Positions 5,930 through 11,192 of a DNA stretch of 64,000 nt are shown piece by piece (positions within the stretch are counted from its first letter, which is position 1; every line of letters begins with the position of its first letter). Location of the stretch: positions 1,426,001 through 1,490,000 of the forward strand of contig NZ_CP017917.1 of NCBI RefSeq assembly GCF_002119525.1, given 5' to 3'. The position numbers were made by a program, and so were the translations under genes. Source of the DNA: Vibrio syngnathi (GTDB lineage: Bacteria > Pseudomonadota > Gammaproteobacteria > Enterobacterales > Vibrionaceae). Under the pieces are notes generated by a model. It did not search any database and was not told where the DNA came from. It was given only the letters and a program-made list of their open reading frames with translations.

Positions 5930-7558
5930 ATGTCGGACCGGGCCATTCTTAAAGTTAATAATCTCTCCGTTAAATTCATAACCAATGATGGAATCATTGA
6001 TGCGGTAAAAAAGATTAACTTTACTCTTAATTCTAGTGAAACCTTGGCCATTGTTGGCGAATCGGGTTCAGGTAAATCTGTCTCTTCCAACGCTTTGATG
6101 CGTTTGCTTCCTGACAACGCCATTATCGATGCTCAATCGGAAATCGAATTTGAAGGTCAGTCGATACTCAAAAAGACTGAACGAGAGATGCAGTCAATTC
6201 GTGGTGACAGGATCGGAATGATCTTTCAAGAACCAATGACCTCTCTCAACCCATACTTACGCGTGGGCACTCAAGTGGCGGAAGCCATTATGTGTCATCG
6301 TAATGTATCGAAACCTCAAGCGAAACAGCGTGTACTCGAACTTTTCGACCTTGTACACTTACCAATGCCAGAACAGGCATACAACAAATACCCACATGAG
6401 TTTTCAGGCGGTCAGTTGCAACGCATCATGATCGCAATGGCTCTGATCAACGAACCAGACATTCTGATTGCAGACGAACCGACTACGGCTTTAGATGTAA
6501 CAGTTCAGGCTGAAGTGCTTTCTCTTATCAAAGAAATTCAAAGCAAGATGGGCATGGCGATTTTGTTCATTACCCATGATCTCGGTGTAGTGAAACACTT
6601 TGCCGACCGAGTACTCGTGATGTGTAAAGGGGAATTGGTCGAAGAAGGACTCACTCAAGAGCTATTCGAAAATCCTAAGCACGATTACACACGCATGCTG
6701 ATCAACTCAATTCCGAAAGGCGCTAAGGTTCCTGTAGAAGCATCGGCGCCAGAGCTACTGTGTGCCGATGATATCCGTGTTCAATTCTTGGTGAAATCCC
6801 ACTTCATTAAGAGTAAGAGTCAATATTTCGAAGCCGTAAAAGGCATCTCATTGACCCTGAAACAAGGCGAAACATTAGGTATTGTCGGTGAATCTGGCTC
6901 AGGTAAATCAACACTAGGACGCGCACTAATCGGCTTGCTGCCAAGTACAGGGCGTATTGTTTACAAAGGCCAAGACGTGAGTTTGTTAACCGACAAAGAA
7001 CGTCACAATCTCAAGAAAGATGTACAGATGGTATTCCAAGACCCTTATGGTTCTTTATCACCACGTATGACCGTTGGGGAAATCATCACTGAAGGTTTAA
7101 CGGTACATCAACCTCATCTATCCAAGAAAGAAAGATTAGAACGAGCTCGCAAAGCATTGATTGAGGTTCGCTTAGAACCCAATTCAATTAACCGCTATCC
7201 ACATGAGTTCTCGGGCGGACAAAGACAACGTATTGCGATTGCTCGCGCGTTGATTCTTGAACCATCTTTCATTCTATTGGATGAACCGACTTCAGCACTC
7301 GATCGCTCTGTACAACTGACGGTGATTGACCTGCTAAAAGACATTCAAGCCAAGCACAATATCGGCTTCCTATTCATCAGCCACGACCTTTCGGTAGTCA
7401 AAGCCTTATCGGATCGTGTATTGGTGATGCAGAAAGGTGAAGTGATGGAAGAAGGGTCTGCAGAAGAGATTTTCAATGCACCGAAAAATGACTACACCAA
7501 GAAATTAATCGCAGCGTCATTCGACTTAGAAAATAAATCGAAAAAAAATGCCGCGTGA
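5930..7558 (+). CDS. YejF-like double ABC ATPase, peptide/nickel transport type
   Basis: A 542-residue tandem ABC ATPase. Each half has Walker A GESGSGKS (about residues 43-50 and 320-327), a signature (FSGGQLQR, FSGGQRQR) and Walker B with DEPT; both halves end with the oligopeptide-transporter C-terminal extension (YTRMLINSIP, YTKKLIAASF). Length and order match YejF of the YejABEF peptide/microcin C importer. A tandem ATPase is normal for this family, not a recent fusion. Unusually, no binding protein or permease gene lies nearby; the only operon partner is the small TPR-like protein upstream. It may power permeases encoded elsewhere. Confidence 0.85.
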   Translation: MSDRAILKVNNLSVKFITNDGIIDAVKKINFTLNSSETLAIVGESGSGKSVSSNALMRLLPDNAIIDAQSEIEFEGQSILKKTEREMQSIRGDRIGMIFQEPMTSLNPYLRVGTQVAEAIMCHRNVSKPQAKQRVLELFDLVHLPMPEQAYNKYPHEFSGGQLQRIMIAMALINEPDILIADEPTTALDVTVQAEVLSLIKEIQSKMGMAILFITHDLGVVKHFADRVLVMCKGELVEEGLTQELFENPKHDYTRMLINSIPKGAKVPVEASAPELLCADDIRVQFLVKSHFIKSKSQYFEAVKGISLTLKQGETLGIVGESGSGKSTLGRALIGLLPSTGRIVYKGQDVSLLTDKERHNLKKDVQMVFQDPYGSLSPRMTVGEIITEGLTVHQPHLSKKERLERARKALIEVRLEPNSINRYPHEFSGGQRQRIAIARALILEPSFILLDEPTSALDRSVQLTVIDLLKDIQAKHNIGFLFISHDLSVVKALSDRVLVMQKGEVMEEGSAEEIFNAPKNDYTKKLIAASFDLENKSKKNAA

Positions 7559-7665
7559 AGGGAACTAATCAACATTAACAGCGTCTTATAAGTACATTCT
7601 GAATAATCTCCTAATGGATTGAAATCTAGAATGGATATAGCAAAAACTGGTTTGGCCGCCAAAAG

Positions 7666-7693
7666 AAAAATGTCGCATGGATGCGGCATTTTT
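7666..7693 (+). terminator. intrinsic terminator after the ABC ATPase
   Basis: A hairpin with arms AAAAATGTCGCAT and ATGCGGCATTTTT ends in a T run, about 110 bases after the ABC gene stop. One G-T wobble is present. Confidence 0.85.
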
Positions 7694-7856
7694 CGTTTCT
7701 GGCGTATATGAAAAATCAACTCAGTGATTCGAGCCAGTGATTATGAAGGTCTGCTCAAGTTGACGGACTTTAAACAGGGTTAGCTGATAGTCGGGTCATA
7801 GTAGCAGAGCAGATTCGCTCAACTCATTTTTGGACACAAACGTGCTAGAACTATTG
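7694..7856. other. intergenic, nothing recognised
   Basis: Between the ABC terminator and the first attC-like site I see no ORF with a ribosome site, no clear hairpin and no repeat shared with the rest of the window. Confidence 0.5.
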
Positions 7857-7916
7857 CACTAACAAGCTTCTGCCTGATTAGAAAAAGTATCTTGAAACCT
7901 TAAATGCTTGTTAGGC
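7857..7916 (-). repeat. attC-like recombination site (60 bp) after the PIN gene
   Basis: On the minus strand the site runs from R-box GCCTAAC (7916-7910) to R'-box GTTAGTG (7863-7857). CTAACAAGC and GCTTGTTAG are perfect 9-bp complements at the ends. It starts about 5 bases after the stop codon of the PIN gene, the usual position of an integron attC. Inner L boxes are not obvious, so this site is weaker than the one at 9095-9190. Confidence 0.6.
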
Positions 7917-7920
7917 GAAT

Positions 7921-9063
7921 TTAGTAAATGTCCTGCACCTCTAGCTTTTCTAGGCTTACATCACAACTGATATTACTTTTCTCGGCGCCAAGATACGACA
8001 AATGCACTTGGAGCTGGCTTGTTTCAATATCGGTTTCGATGCCACTTAACTCCACAACCCCCTTAAACACAACCTCGATGCTACCTGTCACTCTAACTTT
8101 GCTTGATTCTTCAATTTCAGATTTCGAGAGCGCTTTTCGATATTCATATGAGAGTGATTCATACGCATCATTTTCACAATAAAATGACAGTTCTGCTTCA
8201 CATTCAGCAGCAAGCACATACGCAAATTTTCCATTACCCAAGTAGCGAGGGTAATCGACAAAAATTTCCTTTAAATTCCGAACATGCACTTCATGTTCAG
8301 TTAGCTCAATATTACTAAGGTCATATGGTAGCTCTACAAAGTCTTCATCATAAAAGCCTTCGACTTCAACTAGATAGTTGTCCGTTAGATACTGAGAAAT
8401 CTCATAGCTAGAATCAGACGTTGAAAGAGTTTCTATTATAGATGTGACTTTTCTTTCACTTGCGTTCAGTTCATCAAGAGTTGCTTTCAGCTGCGGGATT
8501 CTGATTACGTCAGTGAGGTCTTTAAAAAGGACTACATTATCGATGTCTTTTATTGCTTCAATTAATGCGCCATCTTTGGCAACAACAAACAACTCACCTT
8601 CTTTCGCCAGCTTGTTTATAGCATCTAAAATCACAGCATCTGGGATGTCTTCTCTTTGCTTTTTATTACGGAACGCCCCTGTTCCAGAAAAGTAAGATTT
8701 AAAGACATCATCAATTGAAGTATCCGAGATTAATGGCACCAAAACCTTATTATCTTCTACCCATGTATCTACGAATCGATCTGCTTCTTTTATTGACGAT
8801 GACACAAAATTTGTAAACTGTCTTACGACAAACTTATCTTTATCCAAAATAGATTTTCTATTTAGATTGTCTAATGCTGAGTTTAGTTTCTTCAATTCAC
8901 CTTCAGCTTGGTCTTGTCTTTTACTTTTATATTCCTTCAGTACCATTTCAGGAATAACTAAGCAAATTGCATCACTTTTGATCAGTCTCTGTAAAACTTG
9001 GAATCGAGATGATTGCAAACCTTCCTGATGCAGAATGTTGGTATCTAAAAGAATTTTAATCAT
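7921..9063 (-). CDS. PIN-like domain protein (DUF4935 type)
   Basis: A 380-residue protein beginning MIKILLDTNIL, with the first PIN acidic residue at D7. A conserved Glu follows in CLVIPEMVLKEYKS, and a second acidic cluster in REDIPDAVILDAINKLAKEG precedes LFVVAKDGALIEAI; together these form a PIN nuclease-like fold of the DUF4935 class. The C-terminal half (about residues 230-380) is a predicted beta-rich region with no name I recognise. PIN proteins cut RNA; the target here is unknown. Base composition is lower in GC than the sugar genes. It is bounded by attC-like sites, suggesting arrival as a gene cassette beside a HEPN-type gene. Confidence 0.75.
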   Translation of the reverse strand: MIKILLDTNILHQEGLQSSRFQVLQRLIKSDAICLVIPEMVLKEYKSKRQDQAEGELKKLNSALDNLNRKSILDKDKFVVRQFTNFVSSSIKEADRFVDTWVEDNKVLVPLISDTSIDDVFKSYFSGTGAFRNKKQREDIPDAVILDAINKLAKEGELFVVAKDGALIEAIKDIDNVVLFKDLTDVIRIPQLKATLDELNASERKVTSIIETLSTSDSSYEISQYLTDNYLVEVEGFYDEDFVELPYDLSNIELTEHEVHVRNLKEIFVDYPRYLGNGKFAYVLAAECEAELSFYCENDAYESLSYEYRKALSKSEIEESSKVRVTGSIEVVFKGVVELSGIETDIETSQLQVHLSYLGAEKSNISCDVSLEKLEVQDIY

Positions 9064-9094
9064 TTTATTTCTGGATACTCCAAATTATCGATTC

Positions 9095-9190
9095 GCCTAA
9101 CGCCGAAATAATCGGTGACATACACGTGCTATGTCTAAGCTTAAGTAAGTCGGCACGCGTATGGAATCCGACGCAATTGCTTTGTTATGC
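9095..9190 (-). repeat. attC-like recombination site (96 bp) after the HEPN gene
   Basis: On the minus strand it runs from GCATAAC (9190-9184) to GTTAGGC (9101-9095), which fits the attC core consensus GTTRRRY exactly. The TAA stop of the HEPN gene lies inside the first core, a common cassette feature. On the plus strand the end reads GTTATGCGTTGTC, which as I recall matches the end of the V. cholerae superintegron repeat. The length is within the known attC range. Confidence 0.7.
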
Positions 9191-9676
9191 GTTGTCTATA
9201 ATTTTAATCATGAATTGACAAGCTTTAGTCATATTGCTTTCTTGTTCAGAAAGTTTATAGCGCCATTTAGGACCGTGGAACAAGTTATTTCTGAAGCGAT
9301 AAACCACGAATAGACACCCAACGAGTTTAGTAATTTGATCCGTAGAATCCTCTAACAACATCGAATCTACTTCAGGCGGGTTTCTACTTTTTTCTAACTC
9401 TAATGCAGCGTACCTGTCATTGAAGCTTCCACCAGAAAGGTAGCGTTCCTTAAAATAGGTAACGAGTTCATTCAAACCAATCTCTGAAATTTTTCCAGAA
9501 TTTTGCAAATTGGTCGCCAAATTAAAAAAACTCGTTCTATTAGCACTACAGTTTAAAACTTGAGATTCGAAGTAGCTCCAGATCAGAAAAAATTCGCTTA
9601 TCGCTTTTTTTTCTTCAGGGCTTAGATTTGAATAAGTGCTTTCTTTACTACATATCCAATCTGTTGGATCAATCAT
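9185..9676 (-). CDS. HEPN-like hypothetical protein in a cassette
   Basis: About 163 residues, mostly helical, with the HEPN ribonuclease signature R-x4-H seen as R129-NNLF-H134 in VYRFRNNLFHGPKWRY. HEPN proteins act as RNases in toxin-antitoxin and defence systems, and also occur as non-catalytic helpers. No named family was recognised beyond this. I chose the ATG at 9676, 7 bases after GAGGTG, over the longer ORF start at 9730. The stop lies inside an attC-like core. The neighbouring cassette encodes a PIN-like protein, so both cassettes carry candidate RNA-cutting folds. Confidence 0.6.
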   Translation of the reverse strand: MIDPTDWICSKESTYSNLSPEEKKAISEFFLIWSYFESQVLNCSANRTSFFNLATNLQNSGKISEIGLNELVTYFKERYLSGGSFNDRYAALELEKSRNPPEVDSMLLEDSTDQITKLVGCLFVVYRFRNNLFHGPKWRYKLSEQESNMTKACQFMIKIIDNA

Positions 9677-9726
9677 ATACACCTCAATAATAACTTGTCG
9701 CGACACTAAAAAATGAATGCGTTGAC

Positions 9727-9733
9727 ACATAAC
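9727..9733 (-). other. candidate upstream cassette junction core
   Basis: GTTATGT on the minus strand has the same pattern as the Vibrio core GTTATGC and lies about 50 bases before the HEPN start, where the left boundary of that cassette would be expected. No complete attC or attI is visible beyond it. Confidence 0.35.
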
Positions 9734-9793
9734 ATTTTAATATCGTGCCAGCACGAATTCATGTATTCAGAATATCTCAAAAATCCCATCTAA

Positions 9794-9824
9794 CAAACTG
9801 AAATTATACGTATAATTCAGTTTG
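9794..9824. repeat. 31-bp near-perfect palindrome
   Basis: CAAACTGAA and TTCAGTTTG enclose TTATA-CG-TATAA, with a single bulged A. There is no T run, so it is not a standard terminator. On the minus strand it is followed by GTTAGAT, another sequence fitting GTTRRRY, so it may be a degenerate recombination site at the edge of the cassette pocket. Confidence 0.5.
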
Positions 9825-10106
9825 AATCTGATTTCTGGTTGAAAACCGTGCAAGCAAATATTGCTCCCAATTCAAGGCATATTATCAATCAAAAACTTCC
9901 CTTTAGTTCTCAATTATTTAATAGCTTAGAAATAGTGAACAACATATTCGTGCGTAATTGTGATTGAAGGTTAGTCTGATTGTGGATCAGAACATTTAGC
10001 TACATTGTTGGAACTCTAGGCATGAGGAAAAGTAAGGCAAGTTGCAGGGTTTCAAACTAAGTTCAATCCCTCTCTGGCTCACTTTGGGACAGAAGTGCTT
10101 TAGCTT
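9825..10106. other. intergenic, nothing recognised
   Basis: AT-rich sequence between the palindrome and the peptidase fragment. It has no supported ORF. It may hold further decayed DNA, but I could not match it to anything in the window. Confidence 0.4.
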
Positions 10107-10172
10107 ACCTGCCCCATGCCCTGCATTGACATCAATACGAATCATCATGGGCGCACCACCTTGATGCTTGCC
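10107..10172 (-). pseudogene. fragment of a second prolyl oligopeptidase gene
   Basis: The complement encodes 22 residues around [18 protein letters not shown], the catalytic-His motif of S9A prolyl oligopeptidases. It aligns without gaps to 27137-27202 in the intact gene of this window: 54 of 66 bases and 19 of 22 residues by hand count, with most base changes silent. The match ends abruptly after GHGAG, and the LacI stop lies 7 bases upstream of it. It is therefore a remnant of a diverged copy, in the same orientation as the intact gene, at the opposite edge of the sugar locus. Confidence 0.85.
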
Positions 10173-10178
10173 TTGAAA

Positions 10179-11192
10179 TTAACGATACAGAGACTTGGTC
10201 GACTCTCTGACGATTAAATCAATCGGTGGCAATCGAGCCTCATGCCTCTCGCCAGATAACAAGTTCAAGATCGACTGAGCACACACCTCGCCAATCTCTT
10301 CAATCGGCTGCCTTAATGTTGTTAACGCGGGCGTGAAATACTTAGACGTAGGCAAGTCATCAAACCCAATCACCGACACATCTTCTGGCACTTTATAACC
10401 GTGATCATGCAACGCCTTAATAGCGCCGTAAGCGGTTTGATCATTGGCAGCAAACAAAGCAGAGAAGTGAACCTTAGATTCAATCAACTCGACCGTTTTC
10501 TCGTAACCAGATTCACTACTGAAATCACCCTGCTTAACGAGTTTTGGCATCACTTTAATACCTGCCTCTTGAAGTGCTTTCTTATAGCCTTCAAAACGAT
10601 TACCCGCATCAGGTTGGCTTGATAGCCCTTTAATATGAGCAATGTTCACATGTCCTTGTTGCAGTAAATGTAGGGTTGCCATGTACCCACCCAACACGTT
10701 ATCAATATTGATGGCGCGGACGTTATTCTCAACAAAATCGTAGCCAACCATCACGATAGGAATGTCTTGTGCGTACTTGGCAATTTCTTCCTGAGTAATG
10801 CTTCCTGTCACGATGATCATGCCATCTACGTTACTTTTTGCTAGATACTCCAACGCGTGCATTTCTAACTTTTTCTGCCAATGCCCTGTCGCGATCACTA
10901 ATGAATAGCCTTGAGCGATCAGAGTTTTCTCCATGTCGTTGAGGATACGACTGGTGTAGGGGCTGTCAGGGTGTTGCACCAAGACACCAATAGTAAGCGA
11001 GCGTCGGTTGGTGTTTTCTTGCATTTGGAAGTTAGGTTTGTAGCCCGTGTCTTTAATGGCTTGCTCAATGTTTTGGCTTTTATCGTCCGACACATAAGTG
11101 GTTCGATTAAGGAAGCGAGACACGGTACTGGGAGAAACACCAGCCAATCTTGCTACATCGTATACTGTTGTTTTTTTTGTTTTAGTGCGCAT
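10179..11192 (-). CDS. LacI-family regulator (sugar locus, first copy)
   Basis: A 337-residue LacI/GalR regulator. The N-terminal helix-turn-helix reads TVYDVARLAGVSPSTVSRFLN (about residues 9-29), followed by the hinge and a periplasmic-binding-protein-like effector domain ending in VSVIGFDDLPTSKYFTPALTTLRQP. It probably represses nearby genes until a sugar binds. It lies downstream of the GH116 gene on the same strand, 96 bases away, and is the last gene before the accessory pocket. The ATG at 11192 has only a weak ribosome site. The exact ligand is unknown; a beta-glucoside is inferred from context. Confidence 0.9.
   Translation of the reverse strand: MRTKTKKTTVYDVARLAGVSPSTVSRFLNRTTYVSDDKSQNIEQAIKDTGYKPNFQMQENTNRRSLTIGVLVQHPDSPYTSRILNDMEKTLIAQGYSLVIATGHWQKKLEMHALEYLAKSNVDGMIIVTGSITQEEIAKYAQDIPIVMVGYDFVENNVRAINIDNVLGGYMATLHLLQQGHVNIAHIKGLSSQPDAGNRFEGYKKALQEAGIKVMPKLVKQGDFSSESGYEKTVELIESKVHFSALFAANDQTAYGAIKALHDHGYKVPEDVSVIGFDDLPTSKYFTPALTTLRQPIEEIGEVCAQSILNLLSGERHEARLPPIDLIVRESTKSLYR

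Follow-up and report, generated by a model that had tools for sequence, protein, structure and literature searches.

Large sedentary integrons of Vibrio chromosomes are described as banks of defence genes, which raises the question of how their cassettes exit to plasmids or other loci. Some Vibrio accessory regions contain defence genes without a known mobility gene (PMC12824646). On Acinetobacter plasmids, the cargo of pdif modules is flanked by short sites made of two arms and a 6-bp core, and the XerCD recombinase is provided in trans. Here we examine a cassette island in a 64-kb stretch of the Vibrio syngnathi genome (G000, two contigs, C1 and C2). This stretch, G000:C2:1426001-1490000, is called the window, and positions are counted from its first base. 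The initial annotation had recognized two genes, for a HEPN-like and a PIN-type protein, in an integrase-less cassette island at 7857-9733. We think it fairly probable that a larger segment, 7831-10091, belongs to a dispersed Vibrio family of integrative modules and is itself non-autonomous, being loaded by an integron integrase and moved in trans.

Comparison with other genomes indicates that the island, 2.26 kb at 7831-10091, is more than an integrase-less array of attC sites. Its borders are formed by two putative recombination sites on the plus strand, both loxP/dif-like, with two inverted 12-bp arms (about NAAAYGWGTTAG) flanking a 6-bp core. The left, attL-like site (7819-7848) consists of a host arm at 7819-7830, the core TGGACA at 7831-7836 and the module arm CAAACGTGCTAG at 7837-7848, while the right, attR-like site (10074-10103) consists of a module arm at 10074-10085, the core GGGACA at 10086-10091 and the host arm GAAGTGCTTTAG at 10092-10103. 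Sites were scored with a matrix derived from leaders and left ends (at L074 the site adjoins a recombinase gene); it comprised 55 distinct arms from 36 rows, of which the window supplied two. With this matrix the right site scored 31.5 and the left 30.9, the highest and second highest values in the 64 kb; the next site scored 16.2, and 30 shuffled windows gave at most 20.4. An earlier site model, an arm, a variable N6 and a second arm, was replaced by inverted arms with a 6-bp core once the recombinase loci had been seen. A transposon or miniature inverted-repeat transposable element with TG..CA ends was also considered and dropped; the left ends matched poorly and no target duplication was visible by eye.

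Within the right site lies a non-coding leader of 352 bp (RE; 9734-10085, minus strand) that reads into the first cassette. Position 9733 is therefore not the right end of the island, as had been annotated, since the leader continues to the core at 10086-10091; the left end is at 7831. A query with 9735-10080 matched in 42 of the 196 Vibrio genomes used for comparison (genomes are labelled G and loci L), and in 17 of these the match covered 250 or more of the 346 bases. An alignment of 19 leader loci, the window included, has sharp limits, with CACTTTGGGGCA on the outside and TAAC on the inside. The latter reads as GTTA on the gene strand and is present in 13 of 15 leaders (L072, L075, L078 and L055, whose inner or outer ends deviate, are left out of the inner-end alignment). 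In the window it forms part of GTTATGT (9727-9733, minus strand), a box at the start of the first cassette that resembles the R box of attI or attC. At all 19 loci the nearest cargo-side open reading frame of 90 aa or more is directed away from the leader. The same genome has another copy of the leader, 89% identical, near 2374000 (L058, G000:C1:2371000-2377500); it reads into a 373-aa gene starting MSKSKLISIDTSIFG, which is PIN-like by eye and matches nothing in Pfam (E 0.01) or PADLOC.

The left end is formed by a unit that we call LE-B (7831-7916, plus strand), which comprises the core, the arm, a 10-bp spacer, a third inverted arm at 7859-7866 and the conserved ATTAGAAAAAGTATCTTGAAACCTTAAATGCTTGTTAGGC. 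The 60-bp site annotated at 7857-7916 is present, and it is also the inner part of this unit, which recurs with other genes. The third arm repeats the core arm in inverted orientation 10 bp further inward and covaries with it among 36 left ends (mean 6.47 of 8, versus 5.61 ± 0.14 for swapped pairs; 0 of 1000). A query with 7828-7918 matched in 100 of the 196 genomes, many of the matches listed covering the inner 38 bp or so only. Among plasmids, 31 records matched a query with 7700-9180, and the 20 matches listed all lie on the LE-B stretch. An outer-end site scoring at least 18 was found at 22 of 29 LE-B loci from the genus search. The module family has several end types. Alternative left ends (L005, L031, L061, L066, L067, L072, L077 and others) have sequences such as '..TTAGCAATTCATGAATAACT..GGTATGGAAA..' in common, several of them with the same kind of site.

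The module occupies the intergenic region between OppF and LacI, where 29 loci were compared. In the ten relatives measured there is no insert, and the gap between the conserved flank blocks (to 7701-7702 and from 10173-10180) is 35-110 bp. In four nearer relatives the same border sequences enclose other inserts, and homology to these four stops at the outer sites (7835-7848 on the left and 10080-10086 on the right). Their cargo is an RHH/RelE-like pair (by eye) in G088, an acyltransferase-like gene (by eye) in G018, a mixed insert in G103 and a DRT1 defence system in G011 (L065, G011:C1:1482000-1489000; Drt1a, E 0; Drt1b, E 3.5e-58). Because relatives are either empty or carry other inserts between the same borders, this site is a hot spot; the island itself is absent in relatives. 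Cargo also varies elsewhere. Among 19 proteins from 16 leader loci, five exceeded a curated Pfam cut-off (a tautomerase, a cupin, an alpha/beta hydrolase, a HAD hydrolase and endonuclease I). On the V. parahaemolyticus plasmid CP080480, homology to pAQU1 ends at the last base of the core. A left end of this kind is followed there by genes annotated as DUF3265, dfrA6 and qnrVC6, with a second site behind them.

Inside these ends are two genes on the minus strand, each ending at an attC-like site, as initially annotated, and the core bases of both sites do fit the attC pattern. The first gene encodes a HEPN-like protein (9185-9676, minus strand; 163 aa from its likely start) with the motif FRNNLFHG. 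Its frame is open from 9730 (181 aa), and the true start is probably Met19 (codon 19), because a Colwellia homologue begins there. The TAA stop lies, as had been observed, inside GCATAAC of a 96-bp site (9095-9190, minus strand; R'' GCATAAC, R' GTTAGGC), and the start box GTTATGT is complementary to this GCATAAC at 6 of 7 positions. The gene is present in 2 of the 196 genomes; the G012 copy of the protein is 90% identical, and a homologue in Colwellia TT2012 is 75% identical (protein distribution was based on the genus genomes, plasmids and, for HEPN only, GTDB contigs). In G012 (contig C5, L002), a 554-bp match of 93.5% to 9175-9728 extends from inside the start box to about 10 bp beyond the R'' box, amid attC sites of superintegron type (by eye). 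On these comparisons the HEPN-like gene is a genuine integron cassette. No second copy of the 96-bp site was found in the V. syngnathi genome below E 3, so the cassette probably did not come from the resident array. At L002 1-2030, an IS3-like element (by eye), which shows GTGTC as a 5-bp repeat, is inserted exactly where the HEPN cassette begins.

The PIN gene (7921-9063, minus strand) is probably an integron cassette as well. It starts at GTTAGGC and ends at GCCTAAC, which are complementary at 7 of 7 positions; the site at 7857-7916 (minus strand) has R'' GCCTAAC and R' GTTAGTG. The stop is close to this site, as annotated, at a distance from GCCTAAC that is four bases (stop at 7921-7923), not five. 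Within an integron array, no PIN cassette was found in the 196 genomes. The only close match there is to the last 31 codons, in G150 (94%), a genome without a HEPN match, and this remnant (L005) continues into a left end of a different type. At L005, on a contig end (G150:C9), the final 92 bp of the PIN gene, 98.9% identical, lie beside an IS66-like gene (by eye).

The same pairing of boxes recurs at other left ends. Of 40 LE-B loci, 28 were readable, six being without a box, five without a gene and one (L074) without a match at E 1e-3. In 14 of these 28, a GTTNNNN box close to where the gene starts is fully complementary to the R'' box of LE-B, against 1.74 ± 1.27 in swapped pairs (0 of 2000 reached 14); without likely duplicates (L093/L136, L094/L137) the count is 12 of 26. 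It follows that genes at these left ends are often integron cassettes, for which the left end is the attC. The assignment of both window sites as attC-like is based on comparison and not on folding, because single-strand folds are modest (z -1.3 to -2.4 relative to shuffles); no Rfam family matched anywhere in the window.

The cassettes are remote from any integrase, as had been proposed: the sole integron integrase match over the cut-off in the genome is at C1:1946553, on the other contig. An integrase acting alone could have inserted both cassettes at a secondary, attG-like genomic site. The cassettes are real and the enzyme is present, and insertion at attG was reportedly published by Loot and colleagues in 2024. 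We consider this explanation unlikely, since it accounts neither for a 352-bp leader and a left-end unit that recur with other genes nor for the matching pair of 30-bp sites that bounds the module.

A candidate for the enzyme that would move an integrative module of this kind is encoded next to a leader at L074. It is a tyrosine recombinase of 198 aa in which R, HxxR, H and Y can be recognized by eye; its homologue on pAQU1 matches PF00589 (E 1.1e-17), and in NCBIfam there is a weak match to PRK09871, a tyrosine-type DNA invertase (E 0.041, far under the cut-off). At E 1e-20, 82 of the 196 genomes encode a relative. At the best-scoring 30 loci, a sample biased to close relatives and including the query's own locus, a site scoring at least 12 lies within 70 bp past the recombinase stop in 24 and 60-200 bp upstream of the start in 20, with both in 14; the background of such sites is 0.148 per kb. 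This arrangement suggests that the recombinase and its flanking sites form an autonomous unit of about 0.7 kb. On pAQU1 (NC_016983, 18639-30676), two such sites enclose a stretch that holds a RES gene and a type I restriction system in addition to the recombinase. Other recombinases, beside the integron integrase, were considered as mobilizers and dropped; they adjoin IS91-like transposase genes (by eye), and the best site there scored 14.1. In that region (L059, G000:C1:1936000-1955000), two copies of a 285-aa tyrosine recombinase and a 368-aa IS91-like transposase (by eye) precede the integrase; further recombinases are present, with more copies on both contigs.

It is also conceivable that the island is a strand-biased circularizing integrative element (SE). 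According to PMC10214605 and PMC9345347, these elements are frequent in Vibrionales, use selected insertion sites and have a 6-bp spacer between inverted terminal motifs. SEs are also described as requiring intA-tfp-intB-srap and as having imperfect terminal repeats of 13-19 bp, and the 37 SEs listed are all at least 6.4 kb, whereas the present module is 2.26 kb with two cargo genes only and its candidate recombinase is a single protein of about 198 aa. Judged by these published descriptions, the module stands apart from SEs, and we regard membership as quite improbable.

The roles of the cargo are suggested by the proteins and their neighbourhoods. For the folds linked to RNA cleavage in the initial annotation, Pfam agrees on the PIN protein (380 aa; PF16289, PIN_12; E 4.5e-21, 76.4 bits versus a cut-off of 32), while the HEPN assignment derives from the R-N-x-x-x-H motif, since none of the Pfam, PADLOC and NCBIfam profiles matches the protein. 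HEPN proteins carry Rx4-6H in an all-helical fold. RNNLFH is kept in 5 of 5 in-frame sequences (the window, Colwellia, two rhizobial plasmids and one V. parahaemolyticus plasmid; the L002 row is left out of this count). Neither protein matched any PADLOC family, and a PDB sequence search with both gave nothing relevant. AlphaFold models had a mean predicted local distance difference test score of 53.5 for HEPN, too weak for structural matching, with nothing at E 0.001 by Foldseek against the PDB, and a poor 33.7 for PIN. Four distant PIN homologue loci were found in the genus (L004, L006, L007, L008); the homologue at L007 overlaps an AbiH gene and that at L006 follows a CAP12-type TIR gene. 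These neighbourhoods point to RNA-cutting defence or toxin roles for the cargo, each cassette on its own. Distant HEPN-like homologues are found on several rhizobial plasmids, and on pSinA of Sinorhizobium (L011, 5447-6489) one directly follows a GIY-YIG (MUG113/T5orf172) nuclease gene.

The initial annotation had raised the possibility that HEPN and PIN form a single RNA-targeting system, and one may ask whether a two-component defence or toxin-antitoxin pair travels together here. The genes are adjacent and on the same strand, and two of the four divergent PIN loci are those beside the AbiH and TIR genes. We nevertheless judge a joint system very improbable and do not uphold this proposal, since the genes have separate cassette boundaries, no PADLOC family matches either and each occurs without the other. 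G012, which carries HEPN, has no PIN match, and at the Colwellia locus none falls below E 0.8 over 10.5 kb. A decayed chromosomal integron that lost its integrase and was later cut by unrelated insertions would also leave an integrase-less attC array, and has hardly any likelihood, given the 35-110 bp between flank blocks in the ten relatives, the integrase-bearing integron on the other contig and the same module ends elsewhere with other cargo.

We therefore return to a non-autonomous module moved in trans. Its ends, its sites, its recurrence with other cargo and the cassette boundaries can be read directly from the sequences, whereas we infer every catalytic step and all protein functions. 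The outer ends would be core sites for a tyrosine recombinase. Inside them lie the conserved leader with an attI-like box, the HEPN-like and PIN cassettes, read away from the leader, and a left end that would double as the last attC. The chromosomal integron integrase may load or swap cassettes at the attI-like box and the attC sites, and the leader may drive the first cassette. The recombinase of about 198 aa, encoded on relatives of about 0.7 kb with the same sites, would be supplied in trans and would excise and insert the whole module at matching sites, here the OppF-LacI hot spot. The HEPN-like and PIN products would probably be separate RNases with defence or toxin roles.

A number of results weigh against this proposal. 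In the junction alignment, the left core is TGGACA in 13 of 16 rows and the right core GGGGCA in 15 of 20, with GGGACA in the window, a conservation that is partly by construction because the rows were located via core strings (right sites of L055, where the sequence is incomplete, and of L073 and L081, both GGGGCA and beyond the search range, are left out). The left core, TGGACA, also differs from the right, GGGACA or GGGGCA, unlike in systems with identical overlaps. A site of at least 18 is absent in 7 of the 29 LE-B loci, the box pairing fails in 14 of the 28 readable ones and a further 12 of 40 were unreadable. The second leader copy, at L058, has a right site of 30.6, but within the 6.5 kb examined no left site scores more than 14. 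No convincing conserved RNA fold was found in the leader, and a promoter scan of 7500-10200 found 7 against 8.3 expected. Across genomes the recombinase is weakly associated with RE (both in 24 of 196 versus 17.6 expected, p 0.019) and not significantly with LE-B (46 versus 41.8, p 0.14). Finally, the V. syngnathi genome has no recombinase of the 198-aa family at E 1e-20 (weaker matches fall outside the search); hence, this copy of the module may be a fossil.

A broader scheme is one of exchange in two tiers. Integrase-less cassette platforms of a dispersed family, each with a leader bearing an attI-like box and an end in which attC and core site are fused, would borrow the integrase of a sedentary integron for cassette uptake. 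A minimal tyrosine recombinase, recognizing two-arm sites of 30 bp in trans, would carry the platforms between hot spots on chromosomes and plasmids. We advance this scheme tentatively and with some doubt. If true, it would be an unrecognized export route for integron cassettes, including defence and resistance genes, and the module offers a directly testable form of it. Because the candidate recombinase would act in trans, such modules may also explain some of the Vibrio defence regions that lack a known mobility gene. In the open-licence PMC papers searched, including PMC10214605, PMC9345347, PMC12753305, PMC12595487, PMC12824646 and PMC11023631, the module ends and the recombinase family are undescribed, which is no proof of novelty.

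How, then, does the module compare with known systems? It resembles a cluster of attC sites lacking integron-integrases (CALIN), the class initially proposed, in having cassettes and two attC-type sites with no local integrase. It differs in being bounded by recombinase-type sites and repeated ends and in recurring with other cargo at many places, and the CALIN label misses the probable mode of arrival because these borders are those of a mobile module. From pdif modules it appears to differ in site sequence, and it differs in having as its candidate a dedicated recombinase of about 198 aa, not XerC or XerD, and in a cargo that includes integron cassettes. With SE-6283 and SE-6945 it shares Vibrio hosts, tyrosine recombinases, a 6-bp element between inverted arms and selected insertion sites, whereas those elements carry intA, tfp, intB and srap in 6-59 kb. 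Short recombinases of the FimB/FimE type are similar in length, near 200 aa, and there is the weak PRK09871 match; that match is far below its cut-off, and the present recombinase is flanked by its own sites in a unit of about 0.7 kb. The sedentary Vibrio integrons remain the likely source of such cassettes, as illustrated by the HEPN copy in the G012 array, but here the cassettes lie in a separate and repeatedly inserted module.

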